DNA of 64,000 nucleotides, taken from the IMG/VR virus record IMGVR_UViG_3300018432_000014, positions 1-64,000 of that record; one strand, 5' to 3'. Positions 31,196-51,530 of this stretch are shown piece by piece (the first letter of the stretch is position 1; each line of letters begins with the position of its first letter). A program made the position numbers and the translations under genes. Below the pieces are notes generated by a model. The model ran no database searches, was not told where the DNA came from, and worked only from the letters and a program-made list of their open reading frames with translations. The DNA is from a virus.

Positions 31196-31234
31196 ATCCT
31201 AGCTCGGTCTTTGAAAAGCGCTAGCGGTATTTCA
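31196..31234 (-). promoter_or_regulatory. 39-bp repeated promoter, copy 1 (minus strand)
   Basis: Reads TGAAATACCGCTAGCGC, then TTTTCA and a TAGGAT -10 box. It drives the minus-strand gene at 31146. Confidence 0.8.
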
Positions 31235-31244
31235 CAAGTGCGCG

Positions 31245-31460
31245 TTACTCTGCAGGAACCTCGATCGGCAATCCGAGCCGCTGTCGCATGTAGTACGAGA
31301 GCGTCAAGTTGAGCGCGCGAGCTTCTTTCTTCAGCTGCGCCTTCTCGCTGACGGTCAACCCGATGAAAGCCGGAGAGCCCTTGCGTTTTTTGCCGAGACG
31401 CGGTCGACCCGCGCCCTCACGTGCTCCGCCTTGTCCGGCGTGAGCGATTTTCTTAGTCAT
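31245..31460 (-). CDS. RHH-like small DNA-binding protein
   Basis: 71 residues from ATG 31460. A GAREGAGRPRLGKKRKG basic segment is followed by PAFIGLTVSEKAQLKKEA and LNLTLSYYMRQRLGLP, the strand-helix-helix pattern of plasmid/phage ribbon-helix-helix proteins. It probably binds DNA as a dimer and is itself a member of the repeated-promoter regulon, so it is one candidate autoregulator. Confidence 0.7.
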   Translation of the reverse strand: MTKKIAHAGQGGAREGAGRPRLGKKRKGSPAFIGLTVSEKAQLKKEARALNLTLSYYMRQRLGLPIEVPAE

Positions 31461-31466
31461 GCTCAA

Positions 31467-31505
31467 CCCTGGATCGTGCCAATGAAAAGCGCAAGCGGTA
31501 TTTCA
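31467..31505 (-). promoter_or_regulatory. 39-bp repeated promoter, copy 2 (minus strand, weak -10)
   Basis: The conserved left part is present (TGAAATACCGCTTGCGC) and the start codon is 6 nt past the expected -10 position, but the -10 hexamer is CCAGGG rather than TAGAGT. Confidence 0.65.
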
Positions 31506-31509
31506 GACT

Positions 31510-31800
31510 GCCCGGATTCGCGGCCCGGATGTGCGAAGAAGGGCAGCATGTGCGCGCGCGAGAGAGGATCCGAGCGGGATCCCCGTCGGCGGGCCCGCGC
31601 CGCTCGAGACCGCGCCGGGGGAACATCCGATCGCGGCCGAGCACGGGCCCTCGAGCCCGCGTGCGACCTGCGACCGCGCCGACCTTGCCGAGCCCGCGCC
31701 GGCTTGTGCCCGGGCCCCTCGAGCCCGCACGGGCCCGCGCCGGGGCATCTTGCGACCGCGCCGCTCGAGAGGCCCGCGCCCCTCGAGCCCGGGGCTCGTC
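31510..31800. other. GC-rich spacer with repeated CGCGCCGCTCGAG-type words
   Basis: About 290 bases with no convincing gene on either strand. It is built from overlapping words such as CCCGCGCCG, CTCGAGCCC and GGGCCC, some able to pair. The same words recur in the spacers at 33915-34072, 35710-35830 and 50670-50834, so this is a repeat-derived spacer, possibly with structured RNA. Confidence 0.6.
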
Positions 31801-32043
31801 TCAGACCGCCTTGAGCTTGCGGCCGACCGCGATCACCTCTTGACGCATGCCGTATCGCAGTTGCGAGAGCAGATTGCGCGACCATTCGGTATCGCGAATC
31901 GCGAGCAACGTCGCTGCGAGCTTCTCGACCGAGGCGTAACCCGCGCCGCTTCCGTCGCCCTCGCCATCCTCGCCCGCTGCGTTGACGCATCCGACGAGAT
32001 TCGTTGCCGTGTTCTTGAGAGCGTTGAGGTTCGTCTTGTTCAC
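31801..32043 (-). CDS. Small hypothetical protein
   Basis: 80 residues, GTG start (MNKTNLNALKNTATNLVGCV...). Gly/Asp/Glu-rich centre, then a helix. The start lies 9 nt after a degenerate CGGCAT version of the CGGGAC element on the minus strand. No family recognised. Confidence 0.55.
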   Translation of the reverse strand: MNKTNLNALKNTATNLVGCVNAAGEDGEGDGSGAGYASVEKLAATLLAIRDTEWSRNLLSQLRYGMRQEVIAVGRKLKAV

Positions 32044-32062
32044 ACCCTAAGCATGCCGGATC

Positions 32063-32068
32063 CGGGAC
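32063..32068 (+). promoter_or_regulatory. CGGGAC element upstream of the minus gene at 32043
   Basis: GGATCCGGGACACTAA on the plus strand. No start codon follows at 9 nt on this strand, so it may be an operator shared by the divergent genes at 32043 and 32172. Confidence 0.45.
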
Positions 32069-32123
32069 ACTAAGACAAGAGCAGAGGCCCGATCCCGAGC
32101 CGATCATGCGGGTCGTGTAGGTA

Positions 32124-32162
32124 TGAAATACCGCTTGCGTCTTTCAAGGCCGGAGCTAGAGT
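32124..32162 (+). promoter_or_regulatory. 39-bp repeated promoter, copy 3
   Basis: TAGAGT is the last hexamer; ATG 32172 lies 9 nt further, the longest gap among the copies. Confidence 0.8.
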
Positions 32163-32171
32163 CAAAAACAG

Positions 32172-32474
32172 ATGGACACCAACGAAACAACGCAGTCGTT
32201 TGAGGCAACTGTCGAGGCATATGTTGCCGCTCTCAATGCTCGTGCGAACGAGCTGATCGCAGCCGGAAAGGCGCCTCTTTACCTGAGCTTCGGCTTCACG
32301 ATGGGGCCAAAGCACGCGCGGATCTTCGCGAATCACGGCGGCACGAGCCGCAGCTCGCGCGCCTTTTTCAGCCGAGACGGCCTGATCCGTCGCGCCGACA
32401 GCTGGAAAGCGGCGGGTCGGATCCTCGGCAAGCATGACAGCGCCGACGCTTTCGCCTACATCTTCGGTCGTTGA
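32172..32474 (+). CDS. Small hypothetical protein
   Basis: 100 residues. It contains YLSFGFTMGPKHARIFANHG and SRSSRAFFSRDGLIRRADSW, basic and aromatic. Looks like a small nucleic-acid-binding protein but matches no family. Followed by a 9-bp-stem hairpin. Confidence 0.65.
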   Translation: MDTNETTQSFEATVEAYVAALNARANELIAAGKAPLYLSFGFTMGPKHARIFANHGGTSRSSRAFFSRDGLIRRADSWKAAGRILGKHDSADAFAYIFGR

Positions 32475-32483
32475 TCCGCGCCG

Positions 32484-32503
32484 GGGCCCTCTTGAGAGGG
32501 CCC
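32484..32503. terminator. GC hairpin between cassettes
   Basis: GGGCCCTCT and its complement with a 2-nt loop, just after the stop at 32474. No T-run; intercassette position suggests termination. Confidence 0.5.
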
Positions 32504-32527
32504 GCGCAGACAATCGACCCGCGCCGG

Positions 32528-32566
32528 TGAAATACCGCTAGCGCTTTTCAAGCGCTCAGCTAGAGT
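32528..32566 (+). promoter_or_regulatory. 39-bp repeated promoter, copy 4
   Basis: TAGAGT then 6 nt (CAAGAC) then GTG 32573. Confidence 0.85.
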
Positions 32567-32572
32567 CAAGAC

Positions 32573-32860
32573 GTGGACAAGAAGACGACAACGAAATCGA
32601 AGAAGTTGCAGATCGTGCTCGCGAAACTCGTCGACGATGTGCGGGTGATTGATCCCGGTGCTCGCGACCTCGGGATCGGGCCGAAGTTCGAGGCGATCAA
32701 GCGGCCTGTCGCGCTAGTTTGGATTCGCAGCGGCACCGGCGCCGACCTCGAAAAGGCGCAGAAGTTCGCGCCGACCGAGGGTTACACGGTCTTTGTGTAC
32801 GCGCCGACCGAGCGCAACCCGCTCGACCGAGCCCGCGCCGACATTGCGGCGACCGCCTGA
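32573..32860 (+). CDS. Small hypothetical protein, leaderless
   Basis: 95 residues, GTG start 6 nt from the -10 box. A basic MDKKTTTKSKK start is followed by strands (VALVWIRSGTGADLEKAQKF, YTVFVYAPTERN) that suggest a compact alpha/beta fold. No family recognised. Confidence 0.65.
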   Translation: MDKKTTTKSKKLQIVLAKLVDDVRVIDPGARDLGIGPKFEAIKRPVALVWIRSGTGADLEKAQKFAPTEGYTVFVYAPTERNPLDRARADIAATA

Positions 32861-32873
32861 GCCGAGGCCCGCG

Positions 32874-32894
32874 CCGCTCGAGATTCTCGAGCGG
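32874..32894. terminator. Perfect GC hairpin between cassettes
   Basis: CCGCTCGAG, 3-nt loop, CTCGAGCGG. It lies between the cassette ending at 32860 and the promoter at 32908. The same hairpin sequence is at 34433 and 51458. Confidence 0.55.
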
Positions 32895-32907
32895 CTGCCG
32901 GGAGTTG

Positions 32908-32946
32908 TGAAATACCGCTAGCGCTTTTCAAGATGCGAGCTAGGAT
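32908..32946 (+). promoter_or_regulatory. 39-bp repeated promoter, copy 5
   Basis: TAGGAT, 6 nt, ATG 32953. Confidence 0.85.
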
Positions 32947-32952
32947 CTAGGC

Positions 32953-33102
32953 ATGGACAACGCAGTAACACGGTACGAGATCGCGGTCGCCAAGATGAAA
33001 GACGCGGAAGCGCGCAACCTGTCACGCACGACGATCGCCAAGCGTTGGCGCGAAGTTTTCGCGGCAGAAGACGCTCTGAAAGCTCGCGATTTCTACCGCT
33101 GA
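32953..33102 (+). CDS. 49-residue leaderless hypothetical protein
   Basis: MDNAVTRYEIAVAKMKDAEA... a charged helical micro-protein ending FYR, too short for standard gene calls. Support comes from the promoter copy ending 6 nt before its ATG and the hairpin after its stop. Confidence 0.6.
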   Translation: MDNAVTRYEIAVAKMKDAEARNLSRTTIAKRWREVFAAEDALKARDFYR

Positions 33103-33110
33103 AAACACCG

Positions 33111-33128
33111 GGGCCCTCTCGAGGGCCC
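33111..33128. terminator. GC hairpin between cassettes
   Basis: GGGCCCTC, TC loop, GAGGGCCC, directly after the 49-residue gene. Confidence 0.5.
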
Positions 33129-33139
33129 GCGCCGCTCGG

Positions 33140-33159
33140 GTGTAGCCCCGGGGCCACAC
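33140..33159. repeat. 20-bp palindrome copy 5
   Basis: GTGTAGCCCC/GGGGCCACAC between two cassettes. Confidence 0.85.
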
Positions 33160-33181
33160 GGCAGCAATCGACCCGCGCCGG

Positions 33182-33220
33182 TGAAATACCGCTAGCGCTT
33201 TTCAAGACCTGAGCTAGAGT
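33182..33220 (+). promoter_or_regulatory. 39-bp repeated promoter, copy 6
   Basis: TAGAGT, 6 nt (CAAAAC), ATG 33227. A copy of the 20-bp palindrome lies 22 nt upstream. Confidence 0.85.
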
Positions 33221-33226
33221 CAAAAC

Positions 33227-33457
33227 ATGGAAACGAAATCGACCCGCGCCGCTAGGTTCGACGCTCTTCTTGCGGCAGCTGCCGCCCGCACACCGGGATA
33301 CGCTGCAGCCGCCGCCCGTTGCGCGGCAGAAAACGCCGCTCTCAAGACGCGCGACCTCGCCGACGCACATCGTGCGAGCCGTAGCCCGCGACCCGACGGC
33401 GGCGAGGATGACGGTTGGGGTGACTATTGCTCGCCCCGATCGGCTTTCGAGGTGTGA
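33227..33457 (+). CDS. Small Ala-rich leaderless protein
   Basis: 76 residues, dominated by Ala/Arg (LLAAAAARTPGYAAAAAR). An acidic, aromatic end GGEDDGWGDYCS. Function unknown. Confidence 0.55.
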   Translation: METKSTRAARFDALLAAAAARTPGYAAAAARCAAENAALKTRDLADAHRASRSPRPDGGEDDGWGDYCSPRSAFEV

Positions 33458-33493
33458 AATACCGCTAGCGCTTTTCAAGACCTGAGCTAGGAT
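33455..33493 (+). promoter_or_regulatory. 39-bp repeated promoter, copy 7
   Basis: TAGGAT, 6 nt (CTGAGC), ATG 33500. It begins within the last codons of the previous gene. Confidence 0.85.
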
Positions 33494-33499
33494 CTGAGC

Positions 33500-33721
33500 A
33501 TGGACACGAAGCAAGCCCTCAAGTTGATTTACCGCCACACACACCGCGATTCGCGCGGAACACTCTCGGATTGCAAGACGATCCTCGTCTACCGCAACGG
33601 GACCTGCCTCGTGCCGCTCGAGGCCCTCACGGCTGCCGAGATTGCCGAGCGCTTGCCGCTCGCAGAACGCCGCGAAGCCGAGCGGCTCGAGAAGATCGCA
33701 GCGAAAAAGGCGGCGAAATGA
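33500..33721 (+). CDS. Small leaderless hypothetical protein
   Basis: 73 residues (MDTKQALKLIYRHTHRDSRG...), with a Lys/Ala C-terminal helix KKAAK. ATGA-coupled to the next gene, so this cassette holds two genes. Confidence 0.65.
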   Translation: MDTKQALKLIYRHTHRDSRGTLSDCKTILVYRNGTCLVPLEALTAAEIAERLPLAERREAERLEKIAAKKAAK

Positions 33722-33912
33722 TCACCCGCGCACAACTCGACTCGCACGTCTGCGACCGATCGCGATCGTGGTGGGCACACGACGCACAAGGGATCCCGCT
33801 CTGTCGGGTCTGCGACACCTGCGAGCGTGCCAAGCTCTCGCGATACCGGCCCGAGATCCTGAGCGGATACGATCAATCTGACGTCGACGAGCCGATCGAG
33901 GCAGACGACTGA
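33718..33912 (+). CDS. Small Cys-containing phage protein
   Basis: 64 residues. WWAHDAQGIPLCRVCDTCER and SRYRPEILSGYDQSDVDEPI form a pattern that recurs in many phage small proteins: one zinc knuckle followed by a YRPEIL...GY motif. Function unknown. Confidence 0.75.
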   Translation: MITRAQLDSHVCDRSRSWWAHDAQGIPLCRVCDTCERAKLSRYRPEILSGYDQSDVDEPIEADD

Positions 33913-34072
33913 TCCCGGGGCCCTCGAGCCCGTGCCGGGCCCGGCAATCGGAGCCCGGCCCTCGAGCCCGTGCCCGGCGACCCGCGCCGCTCGAGAGCTG
34001 CAGCTCGGGCCCGTGCCGACTCGAGGGCCCGCGCCGCTCGAGAAGCCCGCGCCGACAATCGACCGGGGCCGT

Positions 34073-34111
34073 TGAAATACCGCTAGCGCTTTTCAAGGCC
34101 TGAGCTAGATT
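34073..34111 (+). promoter_or_regulatory. 39-bp repeated promoter, copy 8
   Basis: TAGATT, 6 nt, ATG 34118. Confidence 0.85.
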
Positions 34112-34117
34112 CAAAAC

Positions 34118-34423
34118 ATGGCAAACGAAGTCGCAAACACCATCGTCGCGCAACTCAGCAATCGCGGTCTTTTCATGCTTGGCGCGAAAGACCTCGTCGC
34201 AGGCGAAAACAGCCTCACCTTCAAGATCGGCCGGAACAGCAAGACGATCTCGCACATCCGGATCACGCTCGATGCGAGCGACACCTACACGGTCGAGTCG
34301 ATCCGAGTGCGCAAGAGTGCGGGCGTGCCGGTCGTGCGGATCGTCGAGACCTGCGGCGACGTGTATGCGGACAGTCTCAAGCGCACGATCGAGACGTTTA
34401 CCGGCATGTACATGAGCTTGTGA
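34118..34423 (+). CDS. Small leaderless hypothetical protein
   Basis: 101 residues with strand-rich segments (FKIGRNSKTISHIRITLD, YTVESIRVRKSAGVPVVRIV) and an acidic helix near the end. I have seen this pattern in other phage small-gene regions, without known function. Confidence 0.7.
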   Translation: MANEVANTIVAQLSNRGLFMLGAKDLVAGENSLTFKIGRNSKTISHIRITLDASDTYTVESIRVRKSAGVPVVRIVETCGDVYADSLKRTIETFTGMYMSL

Positions 34424-34432
34424 GAGGCCGCG

Positions 34433-34453
34433 CCGCTCGAGAATCTCGAGCGG
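34433..34453. terminator. Perfect GC hairpin between cassettes
   Basis: CCGCTCGAG, loop AAT, CTCGAGCGG, between the cassette ending 34423 and the next promoter fragment. Confidence 0.55.
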
Positions 34454-34466
34454 CTGCCGGGGCTTG

Positions 34467-34490
34467 TGAAATACCGCCAGCGCTTTTCGG
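34467..34490 (+). promoter_or_regulatory. Truncated copy of the repeated promoter
   Basis: The left part is intact (TGAAATACCGCCAGCGC), but the -10 half is missing. The next gene is instead served by a CGGGAC element. Confidence 0.7.
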
Positions 34491-34539
34491 GCCCGCGCCG
34501 AAAATCGGCTCGATGGCCCTGGACATCAGGGCCTGCATC

Positions 34540-34545
34540 CGGGAC
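34540..34545 (+). promoter_or_regulatory. CGGGAC element of the gene at 34555
   Basis: GCATCCGGGAC followed by 9 nt (CACTAAACG) and ATG. The 9-nt spacing equals that at 36744, 46097, 49598 and 54170. Confidence 0.65.
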
Positions 34546-34554
34546 CACTAAACG

Positions 34555-34815
34555 ATGGCAAGCAAGAAAAAACCGACGGACCTCACGACTCAGATACTGA
34601 TCCAAATTCGCGATGAGATCCGGCAGACAAACGAGCGACTCGAGCGACTCGAGCGCCGGCAGACCGACTCGGAAACGCGATTGGCGACCGAGCTTGTCGC
34701 GCTCGCGAAAGCCGTCAACGATGTACGCGTGCTGATCATCGACATGCGTCAGGATCAGCGCCGCATGGAAGCGCTCGAGGAACGCGTGCTCCATGTCGAG
34801 CGCAAGGTGAGCTGA
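34555..34815 (+). CDS. Coiled-coil small protein
   Basis: 86 residues. Nearly all heptad-like (IRQTNERLERLERRQTDSE, then RRMEALEERVLHVERKV), so an oligomeric coiled coil is likely. Serves as the only member of this cassette driven by a CGGGAC element. Confidence 0.65.
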   Translation: MASKKKPTDLTTQILIQIRDEIRQTNERLERLERRQTDSETRLATELVALAKAVNDVRVLIIDMRQDQRRMEALEERVLHVERKVS

Positions 34816-34839
34816 TTCTCGAGCGGTCTCGAGCGGTTG

Positions 34840-34878
34840 TGAAATACCGCTAGCGCTTTTCAAAGACCGAGCTAAGCT
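34840..34878 (+). promoter_or_regulatory. 39-bp repeated promoter, copy 10
   Basis: TAAGCT, 6 nt (CTGGTT), ATG 34885. Confidence 0.8.
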
Positions 34879-34884
34879 CTGGTT

Positions 34885-35061
34885 ATGACAACGACGAGCA
34901 ACGCGAAGACCTGGATTGTGGCCGAGTATCGCAACGACGACTTTTTCGGGCAGACCGAGAACCTCACTCAGAAAGAGGCGACCGACCTCGCAAACAAGAT
35001 GAGGGCAGCCGGTCTCGAGGTGACGATCGCAGACGGCCCGGGCGACCTCGAGAGCTTCTGA
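34885..35061 (+). CDS. 58-residue leaderless hypothetical protein
   Basis: MTTTSNAKTWIVAEYRNDDFF... with KEATDLANKMRAAGLEVTIA, an alpha/beta pattern, ending GDLESF. It is not in a standard gene call but has the promoter spacing of the regulon. Confidence 0.65.
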   Translation: MTTTSNAKTWIVAEYRNDDFFGQTENLTQKEATDLANKMRAAGLEVTIADGPGDLESF

Positions 35062-35123
35062 GACCCGATCGGGCCCGGCAAACACCGGGCCCGCGCCGTT
35101 TCCGAGCCGCGCAGACGACCTCG

Positions 35124-35162
35124 TGAAATACAGCTAGCGCTTTTCAAGACTTGAGCTAGAGT
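35124..35162 (+). promoter_or_regulatory. 39-bp repeated promoter, copy 11
   Basis: TAGAGT, 6 nt (CAACTC), ATG 35169. Confidence 0.85.
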
Positions 35163-35168
35163 CAACTC

Positions 35169-35708
35169 ATGGACAGCAACGCAACCGAGATGTCGACCGA
35201 GGCCAAAAAGATTCACCCTTTCGAGCGCAACGGTCTCGGGATCGCGCCCTTCAAATACGTAGGGTTCTACGTCTCGAAATACCAGGCGATCCCGGGCGAC
35301 CCGAGCTGCCCGATTCAGCCCGGCAGCTCGTGCGACCATTGCGGCACGGCGATCATGAATGTCTGCCGGATCAAGTCGGCCGACGGTCGCGAATTCAAGG
35401 TCGGATCCGACTGCGTTGGCAAGGTCGGGCGCGCGCACGATGCCGCTCTCTTGACCGCCGTCGAGGCCGCCGCCCGGAAACGTGCCGGCGCCGCTCGTAA
35501 GAGCCTCGCAGCGGCCCGCGCTGCAGAGCTGGCGACCTTGCTCGCAACCGAGACGGTCCGGGCGACCCTGGCCCTGCAGCCGCACCCGCACCCCTACCGC
35601 GCCGGGCTCGGTGACACGCTTCTCGACGCGATCGAGTTCTCGGTCAAGCGCAGCGGCGCCGCTGGCATCGCTCGCACGCTCAAGACGGTCAAGGCGCAGA
35701 TCGCCTGA
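35169..35708 (+). CDS. Phage zinc-binding protein, leaderless
   Basis: 179 residues. FERNGLGIAPFKYVGFYVSK, then SSCDHCGTAIMNVCRIKSAD and FKVGSDCVGKVG, form a pattern I recognise from several phage genomes: a zinc-binding fold followed by an Ala-rich helix. Cys at about 54, 57, 65 and 79 are the likely ligands. Function unknown. Confidence 0.75.
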   Translation: MDSNATEMSTEAKKIHPFERNGLGIAPFKYVGFYVSKYQAIPGDPSCPIQPGSSCDHCGTAIMNVCRIKSADGREFKVGSDCVGKVGRAHDAALLTAVEAAARKRAGAARKSLAAARAAELATLLATETVRATLALQPHPHPYRAGLGDTLLDAIEFSVKRSGAAGIARTLKTVKAQIA

Positions 35709-35712
35709 CCGG

Positions 35713-35730
35713 GGCCCCTCTCGAGGGCCC
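35713..35730. terminator. GC hairpin between cassettes
   Basis: GGGCCCCTC paired with GAGGGCCC after the stop at 35708. Confidence 0.5.
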
Positions 35731-35830
35731 GAGCGGCTCGAGGGCAGGAGGCCCGCTGCCCGAGCATGTCGCTCGAAATCCGCGCCGCTCGAGGGCTGCA
35801 GCGGTTCGCAGAGAAATCGACTCGGTCAGA

Positions 35831-35869
35831 TGAAATACCGCTAGCGCATTTCAAGACCTCGGCTAGGCT
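35831..35869 (+). promoter_or_regulatory. 39-bp repeated promoter, copy 12
   Basis: TAGGCT, 6 nt (CTAGAC), ATG 35876. Confidence 0.85.
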
Positions 35870-35875
35870 CTAGAC

Positions 35876-36667: not shown

Positions 36668-36718
36668 AACTTTCTCGAGGGCTCGGGTCGAATATCGGCC
36701 CGAGCCTATTGCATACGG

Positions 36719-36734
36719 GTCCCGCATCCGGGAC
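36719..36734 (+). promoter_or_regulatory. GTCCCG-CATC-CGGGAC element
   Basis: Full 16-bp inverted repeat. The ATG of the next gene lies 9 nt after CGGGAC (ACTAAAGGT), which predicts a leaderless start near a CACTAA -10. Confidence 0.75.
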
Positions 36735-36743
36735 ACTAAAGGT

Positions 36744-37052
36744 ATGGATTACGTCAGCAAGACGGGGCTCGCGAAAATGCGCAAGGTCGTGAGAGAGACT
36801 CGAGCGCTTTATGCGGAGGCCCGATGGGTTGCGCTCGCAGCCGGCAGACAGGCTCGGTCGCGTGACACGAGCCGAGCCCGGCTGATCCTCGAAGACGCAC
36901 TCGACGCGGCTCTCGAGGCTCGCCAGACCATGCGGCATTACGCAGGCGTGCTTGCCAAGATGGAGGCTCTCCCGATCGAGCCGCATGCAGGTCGAGTGAG
37001 CCCGGCTGCGCTCGCTCGGCTGCGCTCGCTCGGCCGACTCAATCCGGCTTGA
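36744..37052 (+). CDS. Helical hypothetical protein
   Basis: 102 residues, Arg/Ala-rich (MDYVSKTGLAKMRKVVRET). Its TGA overlaps the -35 box of the next promoter. Transcribed from the CGGGAC element. Confidence 0.6.
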   Translation: MDYVSKTGLAKMRKVVRETRALYAEARWVALAAGRQARSRDTSRARLILEDALDAALEARQTMRHYAGVLAKMEALPIEPHAGRVSPAALARLRSLGRLNPA

Positions 37053-37076
37053 CCGTACACCGGACAAGGGTACACT
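37049..37076 (+). promoter_or_regulatory. Sigma-70-type promoter of the XRE gene
   Basis: TTGACC at 37049-37054, 16 nt, TACACT at 37071-37076. An ordinary -35/-10 pair, unlike the repeated promoters. Confidence 0.55.
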
Positions 37077-37078
37077 CA

Positions 37079-37138
37079 ATGAGTTACCGGTGTCACGGGC
37101 GTCGACAAACACCTCTACTGAAAATGAGGACGGCATGA
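37079..37138 (+). CDS. Possible 19-residue leader ORF upstream of XRE gene
   Basis: ATG 37079 opens a short frame (MSYRCHGRRQTPLLKMRTA) whose TGA overlaps the ATG of the repressor gene. It begins only 2 nt after TACACT, so its own translation depends on the true transcription start. It may couple or attenuate translation of the repressor, or be chance. Confidence 0.3.
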   Translation: MSYRCHGRRQTPLLKMRTA

Positions 37139-37500
37139 CTGCAAAGAAGACTGAATCGAAGCTCAAGCCGGGCGATCGCGAAGCAGGCGAGTTTCTCGAC
37201 GAGCTTTTGGGAGGCCCGCTGACGTTTGGTGCGATGGTTCGCTCGACTCGAATGACAGACAATTTCACGCTCGCGACGTTCGCGAAGAAGCTCGGTGTGT
37301 CGCGGCAATTCGTGTGTGATGTGGAACAGGGGCGGCGCGCTGTGTCGGCTGTTACGGCTGCGAAATGGGCTCGGTTGCTTGGCTACGCAGAGGCCGTATG
37401 GATTGCGCTTGCGTTGCAAGCGTCTCTCGATGCATCCGGCCTCAAGTATCGTGTGCGCGTTGAATCAATCGCACGCTCGCGAATGCGCAAGGCGTCGTGA
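37135..37500 (+). CDS. XRE-family HTH repressor candidate
   Basis: 121 residues. A charged N-terminus precedes a Cro/C1-type HTH: FGAMVRSTRMTDNFTLATFA, then KKLGVSRQFVCDVEQGRRAV (about 54-74). It is likely to be a phage regulator and a candidate reader of the GTCCCG or 39-bp elements around it. A C-terminal helix follows; no peptidase domain is present, so it is not LexA/CI-like. Confidence 0.75.
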   Translation: MTAKKTESKLKPGDREAGEFLDELLGGPLTFGAMVRSTRMTDNFTLATFAKKLGVSRQFVCDVEQGRRAVSAVTAAKWARLLGYAEAVWIALALQASLDASGLKYRVRVESIARSRMRKAS

Positions 37501-37504
37501 TCCA

Positions 37505-42148: not shown

Positions 42149-42561
42149 GCCAGATCCCTCGACTGGTCTCGCCGACAGAGGTCATGCGAGTGCTGAGTTG
42201 CGGGCGCAGAAATGCGTATGTCGTGATGGCGCGTCTTGGCGGTCACAAGATCGAGGGCATCGGCTGGCGTGTGTCTGAGAAACGACTGCGTGAATACGTT
42301 TGTAAACTCGAGCGAGGATGTAGCGACGAATGGAAACCAAATCTCGAAAGCGAAAGAACGGCAAACGATTCTGGTACGCAACCATCCATTGGTCCGATGG
42401 ACAACGGATGTGCAGCAAGCTCGTCGCAACCCACGTTGCAGACGATGGAACTGCAGCCTCAAGAAAAGCAGCCGAGCAAAACGGCAGAGAGATCCAAAAT
42501 ACATTCGCGAATCGTCGTAGCAGCAAAGAGAGCACGCTCCTTACGCTCGAAAAGGCGATAG
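42145..42561 (+). CDS. Excisionase-like HTH protein
   Basis: 138 residues, GTG start. The first 55 residues form an excisionase/MerR-like HTH (LVSPTEVMRVLSCGRRNAYV, then IEGIGWRVSEKRLREYV). The remainder is Ser/Gln-rich and overlaps the integrase gene by 232 bases in another frame. A phage Xis directs integrase to excision, and its position directly before Int supports the call. Confidence 0.6.
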   Translation: MSQIPRLVSPTEVMRVLSCGRRNAYVVMARLGGHKIEGIGWRVSEKRLREYVCKLERGCSDEWKPNLESERTANDSGTQPSIGPMDNGCAASSSQPTLQTMELQPQEKQPSKTAERSKIHSRIVVAAKRARSLRSKRR

Positions 42562-43454
42562 CTGATCTCGTTTTGGCAAAAACGCTTGCAGGGAAGTCAG
42601 ATGCCACTCTCGAGATCATTGCAGACAAGGCAGCTCGTCTCTTCGAGGTGTTCGGGCCCGACTGCAGGATGTACGCGATCGATCGACAGGCTGCTAAAGC
42701 CTATCTCGAGGAGAGATCGAAGCCGGATGAAAACGGAAACGTGCCAGCGGCGACGACGTTGTATCGCGAGTTTCTGATCCTCAAGCAAGCGTTCAACGAA
42801 GCCGGCATACCGCATCCCGAATGGCCCGAGATACCAGACGCGCCGCCATCACGTGATCGTATTCTTGAGGTACCTGAACAGATCAAGTTGCTTGCGGCGG
42901 TCGCACCTCAACGACGAGTGCTTGTCCAAGCGTATCTGCAGCTCGGGGGCATGCGTAAGAGCGAGCCAGAGACGATCAGTCGCGTGAATTGGAAAACACG
43001 CATGGCCACTATCAACGGCACGAAGACTAGACGATCGGTCCGTGAGGCGCCGATCCCGGATGGTCTTTATGAGTTGATGAAGGAAATGGGCGATCCGTTT
43101 CCTGGATTCGAGCCATGGGCAAACGCTGATCGTGATTTGCGTGCGGCGTGCGTGCGAGCTGAGATCCCGATCGTGAGCTTCAATGATCTGCGGCGTACAT
43201 ACGCGACGTTTATGGCGCGCTCAGGATGCCCTCAACTCTTGCTTGCTCGGTACATGGGAACAAGCGTCAAGATGATCGACGAGGTCTATGCTCGGCTCGA
43301 GGCAGAGGGCGAGCATCATCTCGCATCGGTTCGAAAGGGCGTGCCCGACCTCGAGCGACACAAGCGCAAGGCGAGCAAAGCAATCCGGGCTCGAGAGGCA
43401 CTCGCTGCGCCAATCGCGAAAGCCGTCGACAAGGCACGTGCGAAGACACCCTAG
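42330..43454 (+). CDS. int: Tyrosine recombinase / integrase
   Basis: 374 residues from ATG 42330. A SAM-like N-terminal domain starts KRKNGKRFWYATIHWSDG. Catalytic motifs: first Arg in QLGGMRKSEPETI (about 207), a second box in FNDLRRTYATFMARSG (about 283; the usual H of HxLRH is Asn here), and the tyrosine in VYARLE (about 318). It would integrate the phage at attP/attB. It ends against an opposing gene, with overlapping stops. Confidence 0.85.
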   Translation: METKSRKRKNGKRFWYATIHWSDGQRMCSKLVATHVADDGTAASRKAAEQNGREIQNTFANRRSSKESTLLTLEKAIADLVLAKTLAGKSDATLEIIADKAARLFEVFGPDCRMYAIDRQAAKAYLEERSKPDENGNVPAATTLYREFLILKQAFNEAGIPHPEWPEIPDAPPSRDRILEVPEQIKLLAAVAPQRRVLVQAYLQLGGMRKSEPETISRVNWKTRMATINGTKTRRSVREAPIPDGLYELMKEMGDPFPGFEPWANADRDLRAACVRAEIPIVSFNDLRRTYATFMARSGCPQLLLARYMGTSVKMIDEVYARLEAEGEHHLASVRKGVPDLERHKRKASKAIRAREALAAPIAKAVDKARAKTP

Positions 43455-44621: not shown

Positions 44622-44827
44622 AGGCTGCCGCGGGGTTGTGGGCCGTTTGAGCCCGTCCTGCCTACCAGCGCCGTGCTCGGGCTTTCTGAGCCCGAGCCTC
44701 TCAGCGGTCTTACCACGGCAGGGCCCGACCGACCTAGCGGCCTGCCCGAGACCGCCCCTATGGCGAGCCCGAGGGGCCTGCGATTGGGCTTCTCCCGAGC
44801 CCGTCTCGAGGGCTACCGTCGGGCCCC
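44620..44827. other. GC-rich spacer right of attP
   Basis: About 200 bases without a convincing gene. GC-rich words with partial inverted repeats, such as GGCTGCCGCGGGGTTGTGGGC. No clear promoter for the gene at 44828 was seen. Confidence 0.5.
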
Positions 44828-45085
44828 GTGGCCACCTCTCGACGAGACGACAGCATCGCGCCCGGATTCGGCTTACGCGTTCAAGAAGCACGGCAGCGGC
44901 TATGGATGTCGCAAGCCGCTCTCGGTGAGGCGATCGGCGGCGACACGGCGACCATCTATCGGACCGAGGCAGGCGACAATCTGCCGCAGCTCGCAACGTT
45001 TGCAGCGTTGTGCATCGCGCTCGACGTCTCGGCCGACTTTCTGTTGTTCGGCGACAGTGGGCGCCCTCGAGTCTTGAAGCGATAG
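44828..45085 (+). CDS. XRE-family HTH protein
   Basis: 85 residues, GTG start. FGLRVQEARQRLWMSQAALG, then TATIYRTEAGDNLPQLATF and CIALDVSADFLLFG are the five helices of a Cro/C1-type HTH. A Cro or repressor role is likely, given its position beside attP and integrase. Its stop is followed at once by a palindrome copy. Confidence 0.8.
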   Translation: MATSRRDDSIAPGFGLRVQEARQRLWMSQAALGEAIGGDTATIYRTEAGDNLPQLATFAALCIALDVSADFLLFGDSGRPRVLKR

Positions 45086-45086: not shown

Positions 45087-45106
45087 GTGTGGCCCCGGGG
45101 TTACAT
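45087..45106. repeat. 20-bp palindrome copy 7
   Basis: GTGTGGCCCC/GGGGTTACAT, starting just after the stop of the XRE gene at 44828-45085. Confidence 0.8.
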
Positions 45107-45146
45107 CGCGTGTCTCACGAGGCCCGCTTGAGGCAACCTCGTGAGC

Positions 45147-46097: not shown

Positions 46098-46106
46098 CGG
46101 CCGGCA

Positions 46107-46122
46107 GTCCCGCATCCGGGTC
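46107..46122 (-). promoter_or_regulatory. GTCCCG-CATC-CGGGTC element of the DUF3846 operon
   Basis: Read on the minus strand the half nearest the gene is CGGGAC, followed by 9 nt and ATG 46097. Confidence 0.65.
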
Positions 46123-46208
46123 TTGTTGTCAAGAGTCGTCGGGCTCTCGAGATGCCATTCACGATCTGGCAAGGTCAGGTTTCCCTTTCGGCCGAATCGA
46201 GTTGAGCT

Positions 46209-46751: not shown

Positions 46752-47029
46752 AAGCAGAGACGACAGCGGCACCGACTCGGCGCGTGCTGAAACGACGCGA
46801 GGCGATCGAGGTGTTCCAAGCCGAGCCGCAACGCGAGATGACAAGCGCCGATCTCGCGAGAGCGCTCTGTTGCTCGAGGGCCGACGCGATCGCGACGTTG
46901 CGATCGCTCGAGACCGCTCTCACGATCACGAGCCGGCTCGTCTCGAGCCCGCACCGAGAGGGCCTCGGTCGACGGCGGCGGTTCTACCGCCTGCATCGGC
47001 GAGTCGCTGCAGCCCCGCGTCTCGCGTGA
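46748..47029 (+). CDS. Small HTH-like protein
   Basis: 93 residues. EMTSADLARALCCSRADAIA, then TLRSLETALTIT, looks like a winged HTH. The surroundings are Arg-rich. It is one of several candidate regulators. A promoter copy on the opposite strand points into this gene. Confidence 0.6.
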   Translation: MKAETTAAPTRRVLKRREAIEVFQAEPQREMTSADLARALCCSRADAIATLRSLETALTITSRLVSSPHREGLGRRRRFYRLHRRVAAAPRLA

Positions 47030-47051
47030 CTCTCAATCGGTCACAACAGTC

Positions 47052-47090
47052 ACTCTAGCTGAGACGTTGAAACGTACAAGCTGTATTTCA
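47052..47090 (-). promoter_or_regulatory. 39-bp repeated promoter on the minus strand without a gene
   Basis: TGAAATACAGCTTGTACG, TTTCA and TAGAGT with normal spacing. The GTG at 7 nt opens only three codons (GTG ACC GAT TGA), so it would make an RNA antisense to the HTH gene at 46748-47029. Confidence 0.7.
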
Positions 47091-47110
47091 GCCGCCCGGG
47101 CCCGCGCCGC

Positions 47111-47311
47111 TCAGACCTTGACGGTGCACGCGACAGGATACTGCCCGGCAGTCTGCGACATCCAACGGCCCGCGCCGACCTCGTACACGTGCAAGCCGCG
47201 AAGCACGTACGTATGCGGCGCCTCGCCCGGGCCGACCGAAAACGTGTTGCGCACTTCCATCCACTGCCCGTTGACTCTGATCTGTTTCGCCACACAACAA
47301 CCGTAGCTCAT
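47111..47311 (-). CDS. Small hypothetical protein
   Basis: 66 residues from the ATG at 47311 (MSYGCCVAKQIRVNGQWMEV...). A strand-rich fold with VRNTFSVGPGEAPHTYVL. The start is inside the GTCCCGGATG part of the element at 47313-47318; a GTG at 47320 is in frame. Confidence 0.6.
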   Translation of the reverse strand: MSYGCCVAKQIRVNGQWMEVRNTFSVGPGEAPHTYVLRGLHVYEVGAGRWMSQTAGQYPVACTVKV

Positions 47312-47312
47312 C

Positions 47313-47318
47313 CGGGAC
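47313..47318. promoter_or_regulatory. CGGGAC element at the start of the gene 47111-47311
   Basis: CATCCGGGACACTAAC on the plus strand. Its minus-strand form contains the start codon of the leftward gene; no plus-strand start lies at 9 nt. Confidence 0.45.
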
Positions 47319-47441
47319 ACTAACGCAAGAGGCTAGGCTCGAGATTCAACCGGCGCCGCTCGAGGCCCGCGCCGCTCGAGGCGAGCCCGAGCAGACCGGA
47401 TCGCGTATCCGCGGAAGACTAGAGAAGCGCCGGGCGCTATC

Positions 47442-47447
47442 CGGGAC
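47442..47447 (+). promoter_or_regulatory. CGGGAC element near the amidoligase promoter
   Basis: TATCCGGGACACTAGC. It lies 42 nt upstream of the 39-bp promoter of the amidoligase gene and could modulate it. Confidence 0.4.
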
Positions 47448-47483
47448 ACTAGCGCCCGATTCCCGAGGCGCTGTCGCAAGTTA

Positions 47484-47522
47484 TGAAATACCGCAAGCGC
47501 TTTTCAGGACCCGAGCTAGAGT
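47484..47522 (+). promoter_or_regulatory. 39-bp repeated promoter, amidoligase copy
   Basis: TGAAATACCGCAAGCGC, TTTTCA, TAGAGT; GTG 47530 lies 7 nt later. Confidence 0.8.
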
Positions 47523-47529
47523 GTCTGTT

Positions 47530-48459
47530 GTGAGCACGACGATGAAAACGCTTGGTTTCGGGATTGAGATTGAGACCGTAGGTCTCCGCCGCACGGCGAT
47601 TGCCGCTGCGATTGCATCGGTGCTCGGCACCGACTCGCACGGCGGCGAGACGGCGACCGACTCGCTCGGTCGCACTTGGAAGGTTGTGCCCGATGGCAGC
47701 CTTGCAGGCGGCTACGACAACAGCGGCGAGATCGTCTCGCCCAAACTCACCTACGCCGACCTCGACACGTTGCAGGCGATTGTGCGTGCAGTGCGCGCAG
47801 CTGGCGCGCGGGTCGATGCCTCTTGCGGCATTCACGTGCACATCGACAGCTCGGTCTTTACGGCTAAGTCGGTCGTGAATCTCGTCAAGATCGTGCACAA
47901 GCAAGAGCGCTTGATCGAGCATGCCTTGCGCATCGCGCAAAGCCGTCTCGAGCGCTACTGCCTGCCGATCGATGCTGGTTTTATTCAGCGGCTCGAGGCG
48001 AGCCCGGTTCGCACGATGGCCGACGTCTCGCGCGCTTGGTACGGCTACGACAACTCGAGCCCGACGCGCTACGACTCGAGCCGCTACCACGGCCTCAACC
48101 TCAACAGTCACTTTTTCCGCGGCACCGTTGAGTTTCGCTACTTTACGGGCTCGTTGCATGCGGGCGAGGTCAAGGCGTATGTGCAGTTTTCGCTCGCACT
48201 CGCGGCCCGCGCGCTCACGACGAAATCGGCCTCGAGCAAGCGCCGCGAATTCAACGTGTCGACCGCGAAGTACGACTTTCGCGTGCTCATGATCAAGCTC
48301 GGCCTCATCGGTGACGAGTTCAAAACGTGCCGCCTACACCTCTCGAAGCATCTCGAGGGTACGAGCGCGACGAAGCGCGCCGCGGTTGTCGCGGTTGCCG
48401 CGCCCGAGGCCGCTGCAGCCTCCGAGTCGACCGACAACGGTGCGAACCATGGCTCATAA
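47530..48459 (+). CDS. Amidoligase-family protein
   Basis: 309 residues. Hallmarks are FGIEIE (residues about 8-13), WKVVPDGSLAGGYDNSGEIV (about 52-71), the SCGIHVHID core (about 98-106), and HGLNLNSHFFRGTVEFRYF followed by HAGEVKAYVQFSLAL. This is the COOH-NH2 amidoligase (glutamine-synthetase-like) family, described by Iyer and co-workers as making amide bonds in peptides or metabolites. It is followed by two cyclotransferases that cleave gamma-glutamyl amides. Substrate unknown. Confidence 0.85.
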   Translation: MSTTMKTLGFGIEIETVGLRRTAIAAAIASVLGTDSHGGETATDSLGRTWKVVPDGSLAGGYDNSGEIVSPKLTYADLDTLQAIVRAVRAAGARVDASCGIHVHIDSSVFTAKSVVNLVKIVHKQERLIEHALRIAQSRLERYCLPIDAGFIQRLEASPVRTMADVSRAWYGYDNSSPTRYDSSRYHGLNLNSHFFRGTVEFRYFTGSLHAGEVKAYVQFSLALAARALTTKSASSKRREFNVSTAKYDFRVLMIKLGLIGDEFKTCRLHLSKHLEGTSATKRAAVVAVAAPEAAAASESTDNGANHGS

Positions 48460-48949
48460 GCCCCGCGGCAAGCGGCCGACAGCGGCCCGCAAGCTCGGTC
48501 GTGACGCACTCTACTTTGCGTATGGCTCGAACCTGAGCGCGGCTCAGATGCAGGCGCGATGTCCCGGCGCCGTGATCGAGGCCCGCGCCACGTTGACCGA
48601 CTACACGATCGCATTCGGTGGTTTCTCTGCGCGTTGGGGCGGCGGTGTCGCGAGCCTCGTACGAGTGCGCGGCGCATGCACAGAAGGTCTGATCTACCGA
48701 ATCGACCGAGACCTCATGCGCCAGCTGGATCAGTACGAGGGTGTTCCCCGCTCGTACGTACGCATCGCGAAAGAGGTACTCGACGAGCACGGCCGCCGAC
48801 GTCGCGCGCAAGTGTATCTGCAGACCGACGACGCATTCACATCCGAGTGTCTGCCCTCTGCGAGGTACTTCGCGCAGATCCTCGCCGCATACGACCGACT
48901 AGGTTTCGACACCGATCCGCTACGCGCCGCCATTGGAGGCTATCAGTGA
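48449..48949 (+). CDS. Gamma-glutamylcyclotransferase-like protein 1
   Basis: 166 residues starting 11 nt before the amidoligase stop. LYFAYGSNLSAAQMQARCPG (about 20-39) is the substrate loop, and QLDQYEGVPRSYVRIAKEV carries the conserved acidic residue. A basic N-terminal extension precedes it. These enzymes remove gamma-glutamyl groups as 5-oxoproline, so it may reverse or trim the amidoligase product. Confidence 0.82.
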   Translation: MAHKPRGKRPTAARKLGRDALYFAYGSNLSAAQMQARCPGAVIEARATLTDYTIAFGGFSARWGGGVASLVRVRGACTEGLIYRIDRDLMRQLDQYEGVPRSYVRIAKEVLDEHGRRRRAQVYLQTDDAFTSECLPSARYFAQILAAYDRLGFDTDPLRAAIGGYQ

Positions 48950-49314
48950 CGACGATCGTGTTTGTGTACGGCTCGCTCCTTGCAGGGCAGGGCAATCACC
49001 GAGTGCTGCGCACGGCTCGCTTCGTCGGGCGCGCGCAGACCGCGCCCGAGTACACCATGCATTCGCTAGGCGGGTTTCCGGGCGTTGTGAGCGGCGGCAG
49101 CACCCCGATCGAGGGCGAGTGCTACGAGGTCGACGGCCCGACGCTCGAGGCTTTAGACCGGCTTGAGGGACACCCAAGTTTCTACCGCCGAACGCGGATT
49201 GTGCTAGAGGACAAGATGTCGGTTGAAATCTACTTGCTCACTTCCGAGCAAGTCGACGAGCTGCCGATCGTGGTTTCGGGTTGCTGGTTACAGTACCGAC
49301 AGGGGCAAAGATGA
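48946..49314 (+). CDS. Gamma-glutamylcyclotransferase/AIG2-like protein 2
   Basis: 122 residues, GTG start overlapping the previous gene. TIVFVYGSLLAGQGNHRVL (about 3-21) and LDRLEGHPSFYRRTRIVL are AIG2/GGCT hallmarks, a second and divergent copy. It is a compact version without extension. Confidence 0.82.
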   Translation: MTTIVFVYGSLLAGQGNHRVLRTARFVGRAQTAPEYTMHSLGGFPGVVSGGSTPIEGECYEVDGPTLEALDRLEGHPSFYRRTRIVLEDKMSVEIYLLTSEQVDELPIVVSGCWLQYRQGQR

Positions 49315-49556
49315 GAATCGAAATTCGTGATGGTCGCGTGCTGCAGGGCACGGCATTGCAGATTGTAAAAGCGATGCAGGATCTGGCATTCGGCGTCGAC
49401 GATTTTACGGTTGCGCAGTACGTCGCTTGGGTTGTCGACAACACGCTGCGCATCGAAGAGCTAGCGCTCGACGTCAAGGGCGAGACAGACGACGAGCTTG
49501 CGCAGTCGCTCGTCGACGAGATGCTGCGGCACAACTTCGCGCGAAAGCTCGACTGA
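49311..49556 (+). CDS. Conserved-type small protein of the amidoligase module
   Basis: 81 residues, ATGA-coupled. MRIEIRDGRVLQGTALQIVK and VKGETDDELAQSLVDEMLRH form a pattern that I have seen next to phage amidoligase/GGCT genes. No enzymatic motif; it may be a substrate carrier or regulator. Confidence 0.6.
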   Translation: MRIEIRDGRVLQGTALQIVKAMQDLAFGVDDFTVAQYVAWVVDNTLRIEELALDVKGETDDELAQSLVDEMLRHNFARKLD

Positions 49557-49582
49557 GACGAGTTGACAACGAGGCCCGCATC

Positions 49583-49588
49583 CGGGAC
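49583..49588 (+). promoter_or_regulatory. CGGGAC element of the gene at 49598
   Basis: CCCGCATCCGGGAC then ACTATAAGC (9 nt) then ATG; leaderless expression is predicted. Confidence 0.7.
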
Positions 49589-49597
49589 ACTATAAGC

Positions 49598-49783
49598 ATG
49601 GCTGCGAAACGTCGTCGTCGGTGTGTAGTGTGCGAGCGAGAATGCGTGCTTCTTTTGTGCGCGCGATGTTCGCGCTCATACGACAGGTCTTGTCGGAGAG
49701 ACGACTCGACGCTCGCAGCTGTCATCGAATGGGCCGCGACACGAGCCCGCAGGTTTGTGAAAGGTGATCCACGTGGCCAGTAA
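49598..49783 (+). CDS. Small zinc-knuckle protein
   Basis: 61 residues. CVVCERECVLLLCARC is a double knuckle, with a basic start MAAKRRRR. It overlaps the ligase start. Confidence 0.55.
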   Translation: MAAKRRRRCVVCERECVLLLCARCSRSYDRSCRRDDSTLAAVIEWAATRARRFVKGDPRGQ

Positions 49784-50669
49784 ACAGTTTCGCCCGATGC
49801 TCGCAGAGACGCTCGAGTCAGTGACTCAGCTTCGTTTTCCGGTGCTCGTGTCACCCAAGCTCGACGGCATTCGGTGCGTGATCCGAGAGGGCAAAGCTCT
49901 GAGCCGGAGCCTCAAACCGATCCCGAACGAAGCCGTGCGGAAGTTTCTCGAGGGCCGCCCGGAACTTGAGGGCCTCGACGGCGAGTTGATGGTCCACGGC
50001 GCGACGTTTCAGACCGTCACGAGCACGTTTATGAGCCGCTCGGGCGCGTTGCCGGGAGGTTGGTATTTCGGCGTGTTCGATGCTCTGCCGATTGTCGAGC
50101 GCGAGCCCTACACGACTCGGTTGATTCGAGCGACGGCTGCGGTCGCTGCAGCGGGCCCGCACATCGTGCTTGTCGAGCAGAGCGAGATCGCGAATGCGGA
50201 TCAGCTCGATACGTACGAGGCGAAAGCTCTCGAGCTTGGCTTCGAAGGCGTGATGATTCGTCGCGCTGCAGCGTTCTACAAGCACGGCCGTTCGACCGCG
50301 ACCGACGGCGCCTTGCTCAAGCTCAAGCGCTTTGCCGACGGCGAGGCGACGGTAATCGGCTTTGCCGAGCGCATGCACAACGGCAACATTGCGACGACGA
50401 GCGCGATCGGTCGCACGCAACGATCATCAGCGAAAGCAGGCAAGTCGCAGACGGGCTCGCTCGGTGCGTTGCTTGTGCGTGAGTGCGCGACCGGGATCGA
50501 GTTTGAGGTCGGCACCGGTTTCACCGAGTCGCAACGCCAGTCATTTTGGCGCGAGCAGACCGAGTTGCTCGGTCGCACGATCAAGTACAAGCATTTCGTG
50601 ATCGGCGCGATGCTCAAGCCGCGGTTCCCGACCTTCGTCGGCTTCCGAGCGGCCGAAGACATGGGCTAG
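49773..50669 (+). CDS. ATP-dependent DNA ligase
   Basis: 298 residues from GTG 49773 (AAAGGTGATCC upstream). The nucleotidyl-transfer lysine is in SPKLDGIR (about 28-35). Further motifs are LDGELMV (about 69), WYFGVFDAL (about 96), EGVMIRR (about 152) and LLKLKRFAD (about 178). The C-terminal OB part ends with IKYKHFVIGAMLKPRFPTFV. It is a compact phage ligase that seals nicks during replication and recombination. GTG 49764 is an alternative start. Confidence 0.9.
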   Translation: MASKQFRPMLAETLESVTQLRFPVLVSPKLDGIRCVIREGKALSRSLKPIPNEAVRKFLEGRPELEGLDGELMVHGATFQTVTSTFMSRSGALPGGWYFGVFDALPIVEREPYTTRLIRATAAVAAAGPHIVLVEQSEIANADQLDTYEAKALELGFEGVMIRRAAAFYKHGRSTATDGALLKLKRFADGEATVIGFAERMHNGNIATTSAIGRTQRSSAKAGKSQTGSLGALLVRECATGIEFEVGTGFTESQRQSFWREQTELLGRTIKYKHFVIGAMLKPRFPTFVGFRAAEDMG

Positions 50670-50834
50670 CGCGTCGCTCGAGGGCCCGAGCTGCCCGATC
50701 GCCTCGAGGCCGCTACGTCGACGAGCCCGCTCGAGGCCCGCGCCACTCAGAGCCTGCAGGCTACCGCCGATCGGCAGCTCGAGGCCCGCGCCGACCTGCA
50801 GCCCGCGCCGCTCGAGACCGCCGATCGGCTCTCG
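50670..50834. other. GC-rich spacer with repeated CTCGAG words
   Basis: 165 bases with no gene seen. Built from words like GCCCGCGCC, CTCGAGGCC and CTGCAGC, like the spacers of the other cassette array. Confidence 0.5.
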
Positions 50835-50873
50835 TGAAATACAGCTAGCGCTTTTCAAGACCTGAGCTAGAGT
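50835..50873 (+). promoter_or_regulatory. 39-bp repeated promoter
   Basis: TAGAGT, 6 nt (CTTGGT), GTG 50880. Confidence 0.85.
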
Positions 50874-50879
50874 CTTGGT

Positions 50880-51143
50880 GTGGCGAGCAAGAACAAAGAC
50901 GACGGTTATCGAGATTCGATCGACACTGCCGCGTATGAATGCGATCAGGCGAAAGCAGGTCGACCTGAGCGCAGTTGGGCAGATGCAATCGATGCGCGTG
51001 CTGATCAGGTTGAGGCTGAACAACTTCTTCCCGAGCTATCTAGCGCCAAACGGATCCGCGTCGTTCGGCACATGCGCGACACTGCCGAGGCGAAACGTCG
51101 GCCGGTTGCCGAAGGGCTGACGTGGTTGAGAAAACGACAGTAA
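50880..51143 (+). CDS. Small leaderless hypothetical protein
   Basis: 87 residues, GTG start, basic (MASKNKDDGYRDSIDTAAYE...). Helical and charged. No family. Confidence 0.6.
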   Translation: MASKNKDDGYRDSIDTAAYECDQAKAGRPERSWADAIDARADQVEAEQLLPELSSAKRIRVVRHMRDTAEAKRRPVAEGLTWLRKRQ

Positions 51144-51156
51144 TCGCGAGCGGTTG

Positions 51157-51195
51157 TGAAATACCGCTAGCGCTTTTCAAGACCTGAGCTAGAGT
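51157..51195 (+). promoter_or_regulatory. 39-bp repeated promoter
   Basis: TAGAGT, 6 nt, GTG 51202. Confidence 0.85.
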
Positions 51196-51201
51196 CTTGG
51201 T

Positions 51202-51447
51202 GTGGGCAACAAAACGAAAACGAAACGAATCTCACCAACGTACAAAGACCGTGGAATCGTGGCGCATGTGACGATCGTCGCGCGTCGGGGCAGTCAGCGA
51301 GGGCTCGGCACGGGCTCGCGATACAACGTATGCGGCGCAGAGCTAACCGCCTACGACATGAGCGTTGCAGAAGCCAAGGGCGAGAAGCTCGCAGGCATGC
51401 TCGAAGAGTGGCTCACATGCCCGGCATGTCGTGCGCTCGAAAAGTGA
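51202..51447 (+). CDS. Small leaderless Cys-containing protein
   Basis: 81 residues (MGNKTKTKRISPTYKDR...). VCGAELTAYD and CPACRALEK may pair in a zinc site. Same promoter architecture as its neighbours. Confidence 0.6.
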   Translation: MGNKTKTKRISPTYKDRGIVAHVTIVARRGSQRGLGTGSRYNVCGAELTAYDMSVAEAKGEKLAGMLEEWLTCPACRALEK

Positions 51448-51457
51448 GAGGCCCGCG

Positions 51458-51478
51458 CCGCTCGAGATTCTCGAGCGG
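51458..51478. terminator. Perfect GC hairpin between cassettes
   Basis: CCGCTCGAG, loop ATT, CTCGAGCGG, after the stop at 51447; identical in sequence to 32874-32894. Confidence 0.55.
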
Positions 51479-51491
51479 CTGCCGGGGCTTG

Positions 51492-51530
51492 TGAAATACC
51501 GCTAGCATTTTTCAAGACCTGAGCTAGAGT
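51492..51530 (+). promoter_or_regulatory. 39-bp repeated promoter
   Basis: TAGAGT, then 6 nt to a GTG (51537) in a frame with poor protein content; the likely gene starts at ATG 51569 in another frame. Confidence 0.8.

Follow-up and report, generated by a model that had tools for sequence, protein, structure and literature searches.

The stretch of DNA analysed here, which we call the window, comprises bases 1–64000 of the 73,487-bp IMG/VR virus record IMGVR_UViG_3300018432_000014 (G000). It encodes a tyrosine integrase (42330–43454), a family B DNA polymerase, a terminase-like protein, a portal protein and a DNA ligase, and because of this gene content we read G000 as a temperate phage. Between positions 31196 and 51530 the window carries a repeated 39-bp promoter-like unit built around an inverted repeat, element A, interleaved with a second and unrelated promoter type, element B. 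We compared four metagenomic genomes, G000–G003, using open reading frames (ORFs) from our own gene caller. The closest relative, G001 (IMGVR_UViG_3300018422_000001, 110 kb), is mostly ~80–92% identical to G000 where the two can be aligned by blastn, with the cassettes in a different order. The other relatives are G002 (IMGVR_UViG_3300043388_000012) and G003 (IMGVR_UViG_3300048606_000120), to which polymerase, portal and capsid proteins are common at 64–81% identity. INPHARED phages, searched at the DNA level, gave no match, and protein searches with the PolB, RecA-like and capsid proteins returned distant phages only and no host.

Matches to TGAAATACCGCTAGCGC with up to three mismatches number 16 in the window, against 0.13 expected from shuffled sequence, and a dyad scan adds one more at 47052–47090 on the minus strand, bearing out the 17 copies counted in an earlier, sequence-only reading of this DNA. 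With the 23 copies in G001 the total is 40. The core of element A is a 23-bp dyad, TGAAA-N13-TTTCA, spanning about −45 to −23 relative to the start codon (+1) and centred near −34. A −10 box of the form TANNNT (−12 to −7) stands at a fixed distance from it in 36 of the 40 copies, as in sigma-70-type promoters. Conservation is strongest in the TGAAAT/TTTCA arms and at T−12, A−11 and T−7 of the −10 box; sequence varies in the 10-bp spacer and over the 6 nt leading up to the start codon. At a spacing of 16 bp, TAGCGC occupies the −35 position of most copies, the minority form being TTGCGC/T. The sequence-only reading lists TTTTCA as a part of the element; because it lies 10 bp from the −10 box we reject it as a −35, and it forms the dyad's right arm. 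That reading had also placed the palindrome at a central CGCTAGCG: a dyad is indeed present, but the operative one is TGAAA-N13-TTTCA and not CGCTAGCG alone. The 39 bp from TGAAAT through the −10 box, said to hold for every full copy, are found in 15 of the 17 window copies; one minus-strand copy (31467–31505) has CCAGGG at −10, and the copy at 34467 is decayed.

An ATG or GTG lies exactly 6 nt past the −10 box in 27 of the 36 TANNNT copies, with four more at 7 nt and two at 9 nt. The ten plus-strand window copies previously reported to have this spacing do so, each with an in-frame start that opens an ORF of 49–263 codons and is predicted to be leaderless: 32528–32566 (GTG 32573), 32908–32946 (ATG 32953), 33182–33220 (ATG 33227), 33455–33493 (ATG 33500), 34073–34111 (ATG 34118), 34840–34878 (ATG 34885), 35124–35162 (ATG 35169), 35831–35869 (ATG 35876), 50835–50873 (GTG 50880) and 51157–51195 (GTG 51202). 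Two other plus-strand copies have the start slightly further off, at 9 nt for 32124–32162 (ATG of gene 32172) and at 7 nt for 47484–47522 (GTG of the amidoligase gene, 47530–48459). The region under the latter copy, 47530–49314, encodes the amidoligase and, after it, two small proteins resembling gamma-glutamylcyclotransferases by eye. At the seventeenth copy, 47052–47090 (−), a GTG 7 nt past the −10 box opens only 3 codons.

The remaining copies depart from this pattern. At 51492–51530 (+) the GTG at 6 nt, like that of its G001 orthologue (together 2 of the 27 six-nt starts), lies in a different frame from the conserved ORF that follows (at 51569 in the window, with GGAG before it), and both promoters are therefore probably short-leadered. 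The copy at 31196–31234 (−), with a −10 box TAGGAT, is followed by a 49-nt stretch to ATG 31146, with GGAG before the ATG and the leader conserved in G001. Shortly 3' of its −10 box (31147–31195, −) lies GTTGTCAG, which also occurs at the leadered promoter of G003 at ~25930 (−); TTGTC is found 3' of several B-like sites as well. The copy at 31467–31505 (−), 5' of a gene for a ribbon-helix-helix (RHH) protein, keeps an intact dyad but has the altered −10 CCAGGG, likewise in G001; an alternative promoter, TTGCGC-17-CAGGGT-5-ATG, can be read here. Finally, 34467–34505 (+), earlier called truncated, is indeed degenerate: it is a decayed element A without a −10 box, immediately 5' of a B-like promoter. 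Strong hairpins (CCGCTCGAG-ATT-CTCGAGCGG) without a T run lie just 5' of element A copies, e.g. at 32864–32907, 34423–34466 and 51448–51491, and the mean fold energy 5' of the copies is −19.8, compared with −14.3 in random pieces. These hairpins are possible terminators or insulators.

Element B (GTCCCGCATCCGGGAC), which the sequence-only reading had missed, is placed between a TTGCAT/TTGACA-like −35 and the −10 box, which overlaps its right half, and the start codon again follows 6 nt past the −10. G002 is richest in such promoters, with 13; G000 has six, of which the one at 54145 is doubtful, G001 has three and G003 a single one. The scan behind these numbers was permissive, and two G001 copies are not among the 21 it listed; 19 of those 21 have a −35-like hexamer at a distance of 17 bp. 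In the window, B precedes gene 36744 (36709–36743, +; TTGCAT-17-GACACT-6-ATG) and occurs at 49563–49597 (+; TTGACA-17-GACACT-6-ATG). Variants are found at 63062–63096 (+; TTGACG-17-GATTAT-6-GTG), at 32044–32078 (−; TTGTCT-17-CATGCT-6-GTG), 5' of gene 31801–32043, which has B in G001 and G002 too, and at 47294–47328 (−; TTGCGT-17-TACGGT-6-GTG), 5' of gene 47111–47293. The doubtful site, 54135–54169 (+; TAGACA-17-GACACT-6-GTG), opens an ORF antisense to the conserved sigma-region-4 gene. A B-like operator and promoter at 34530–34554 (+) precedes ATG 34555, directly 3' of the decayed element A. Elsewhere in IMG/VR, B-like palindromes fall within apparently conserved coding sequence and not in promoter arrays.

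Absence or lack of conservation in related phages, named as a refutation in the sequence-only reading, was checked for and is not what the relatives show: G001 keeps element A itself, and G002 and G003 keep the same architecture with a different dyad. Element A was looked for in G002 and G003 and is absent from both. The main repeated element of G002 is B, and that of G003 is a third dyad, element C (TTGAAATCGTGTTGCACGATTTCAA, spacer 8, TANNNT), a 25-bp palindrome lying over a −35 of TTGCAC. Of its eight copies in G003, five have an ATG at 6 nt and one at 7 nt. The outer TGAAAT/TTTCA arms are common to A and C. A degenerate C pattern matched no contig in IMG/VR, G003 itself included, and was probably too strict. 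Other IMG/VR contigs hold no element A arrays besides that of G001, the dyad-plus-promoter pattern giving single matches only; 68 matches to the element A motif in GTDB are all single copies spread across many unrelated phyla, which we read as chance, and Rfam gave no match. The view that this is a phage-specific regulon is supported.

The type of operator, A, B or C, differs between these related phages, and it does so at individual genes. At genes 36744 and 47111, G000 has B and G001 has A; at 32573, G000 has A and G001 has B; genes 32172, 33500 and 34118 have A in both G000 and G001, and in G002 they are preceded by B. The first 60 coding nt of gene 47111 are 90% identical between G000 and G001 despite the different promoter type, and at swapped promoters the start codon stays 6–7 nt behind the −10 box. 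Where both genomes have A, the promoters are 78–91% identical and the DNA 5' of them only 49–84%. The single regulator suggested by the sequence-only reading is not supported: the window has two interleaved promoter types that interchange at orthologous genes.

We scored the ribosome-site signal at −15 to −3 of each start. Only 17% (G000), 12% (G001) and 8% (G002) of A/B-driven starts are positive, as against 41–50% of other genes and 14–16% of random DNA. Leaderless genes are recognised in sequence by a start codon 5–8 nt past a −10 box with no ribosome site before it, and A- and B-driven starts have this arrangement, G003 lacking the drop in ribosome-site signal. Transcripts from A and B cartridges probably begin at the start codon. 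The earlier reading of a promoter combined with a dyad and its prediction of leaderless starts are both supported, with short leaders at 31196–31234 (−) and probably at 51492.

We interpret the 39-bp repeat as an operator–promoter cartridge that yields leaderless mRNAs and is bound by a dimeric, phage-encoded protein that is probably a lysogeny repressor, and assign this reading a probability of about 0.6. The 23-bp dyad would overlie the −35 region, with the TANNNT box at −12 to −7; from this position of the box we infer that host sigma-70-type RNA polymerase initiates on the first base of the ATG or GTG, and that translation of the resulting leaderless mRNA needs no ribosome-binding site. 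A cartridge would drive a single small gene of early type or a few of them, and the dimer would bind all the dyads and silence the set together. The relatives have other operators in this architecture, B between −35 and −10 and C over −35, and the cartridges are replaced gene by gene, as expected if the operator type sets immunity specificity. The arrangement looks like a phage immunity system changing its lock one gene at a time. A wider proposal, to which we hold only tentatively, is that these are interchangeable leaderless cartridges whose operator type (A, B or C) would define an immunity group, with exchange points at the start codon, replacement of one gene at a time, and mixed genomes such as the window as intermediates under two repressors.

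Several observations weigh against our interpretation. In G003 the putative leaderless set (n=6, a small sample) shows no drop in ribosome-site signal, at 50% versus 45%. Some copies are short-leadered, e.g. 31196–31234 (−) and probably 51492, with GGAG before a conserved ORF. The −35 of most A copies is TAGCGC and not TTGxxx, which would also fit an activator-dependent promoter. The permissive scan for B and the two G001 copies left out of its list count on the same side.

The most serious alternative, which we regard as rather unlikely, is that the dyads are activator sites at promoters with a weak −35, where an early phage regulator would recruit the host polymerase, making the cartridges a delayed-early regulon. 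The TAGCGC hexamer of element A suits this, and sites overlapping −35 can activate. However, B has a near-consensus −35 at 17 bp and its operator in the spacer and −10, C has TTGCAC, and A and B interchange at orthologous genes. We favour a repressor, by a clear but not overwhelming preference, because A and C lie over −35 and B over the spacer and −10, positions typical of repressors, and because the −35 boxes of B and C appear usable.

Two further explanations seem improbable to us. The dyad and −10 box could together form a promoter for a phage-modified polymerase, acting for instance through the sigma-70 region-4-like protein (54188–54478, −), with no separate operator. This protein is kept in all four phages, yet while it is well conserved the A, B and C dyads are completely different, and palindromic dyads fit a dimeric regulator. 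Alternatively, translation could proceed from short-leader or read-through transcripts, the 6-nt spacing being an unusual ribosome signal. The leadered copies at 31196 and 51492 and the undiminished signal in G003 would agree with this, but the 6 nt that precede the start differ from copy to copy and the ribosome-site signal of A/B-driven starts is at background. Least probable is that the repeats mainly help cassettes to shuffle, as homology arms or as mobile repeats, and have an incidental promoter-like layout: cassette order does differ between G000 and G001 and repeats can promote recombination, but dyad and −10 are conserved while spacer and flanks vary, and the unrelated B and C occupy the same position at the same distance from the start codon.

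Under the operator–promoter interpretation, the best-fitting candidate regulator for A and C is the RHH protein (31245–31460, −), because its gene is divergent from the right-hand array and lies behind its own element A, and because orthologues occur in G001 and G003 and were not found in G002. Its weak, NikA-like Pfam match is under the curated cut-off, and its AlphaFold model is of low confidence (pLDDT 71). A rival candidate for A is an XRE protein encoded downstream of the integrase gene (44738–45085, +). For B, the candidate is a Fis-type helix-turn-helix (HTH) protein (54810–55157, +), which all four phages encode and whose helix hardly varies among them; a B-like palindrome lies 5' of its gene, exact in G002 and degenerate in the other phages.

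Two other XRE proteins were considered as regulators and rejected. In G001 a RelE-like gene precedes the counterpart of XRE 37135, as expected of a toxin-antitoxin pair, and 37135 is therefore more likely an antitoxin; comparison of window 37000–37500 with G001 6657–7407 suggests that the RelE-like ORF is mostly missing from the window, leaving an orphan antitoxin-like gene. XRE 53626 was set aside because its HTH does not change in step with operator type. Elsewhere in the window, the portal ORF (58189–61227, 1012 aa) has an internal LAGLIDADG-like domain, probably an intein, and its best G001 match covers residues 1–466 only; 56145–57383 (−) encodes a ParB-like domain fused to a DNA methyltransferase and is 95% conserved in G001.

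These phages bear on the question of how a temperate phage can alter the sequence of dozens of operators along with its repressor. With three operator types at orthologous positions, and two of them in one genome, they make the steps of such a change directly readable. The cartridges also offer compact, ready-made leaderless promoters for testing leaderless gene expression and its control.

The conserved inverted repeats of phiC31 are operators scattered in the early region and bound by the phage repressor; they are not known to form leaderless one-gene cartridges. The earlier statement that no phage regulon of this architecture had been described is fair for the leaderless form, as judged from the open-access literature, but promoter-plus-dyad repeats are known. 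The ESAS of cluster K mycobacteriophages (Adephagia, TM4) is a 46–47-bp intergenic repeat with SigA-like −35 and −10 boxes and an imperfect inverted repeat, which stands 5' of several small genes, in seven copies in Adephagia, and whose role is unknown (PMC11373665, PMC3203893). Element A resembles it as a repeated intergenic promoter with an inverted repeat, of unrelated sequence. In cluster K, however, ESAS is joined to the start-associated SAS with its ribosome-site-like pairing, so that these genes are leadered, whereas the element A cartridge ends at the start codon; the SAS sequence GGGATAGGAGCCC is absent from the nucleotides before A-driven starts. Among more distant relatives, G004–G009, G012 and G013 were scanned and have no comparable leaderless array. 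One of them, G005 (IMGVR_UViG_3300018432_000013), has CGGGAGCACG a short distance 5' of ATG at least 13 times between 66.5 and 74.2 kb, a ribosome-site-type start-associated repeat like the cluster K SAS.

SPBRE of SPbeta, a 15-bp site bound by the recombinase-fold master repressor MrpR, likewise recurs in the promoters of numerous phage genes without assigned function and holds lysogeny; the paper makes no mention of leaderless genes and is not known to report swapping of operator types (PMC10516654). Cluster O mycobacteriophages have more than 30 copies of a 17-bp dyad repeat and some SigA promoters predicted to be leaderless, but most of the repeats are not near promoters, and dyad and leaderless promoter do not form one unit as they do here (PMC4351075). 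Cluster A mycobacteriophages have about 30 repressor sites per genome, the stoperators, whose consensus differs between heteroimmune relatives (PMC6550527), and element A shares with them the many sites per genome and the variation between relatives. Most stoperators lie away from promoters and block elongation (PMC6550527), in contrast to element A, where a −10 box stands at a constant distance from the dyad in 36 of 40 copies; and the operators described here change to unrelated sequences, gene by gene.

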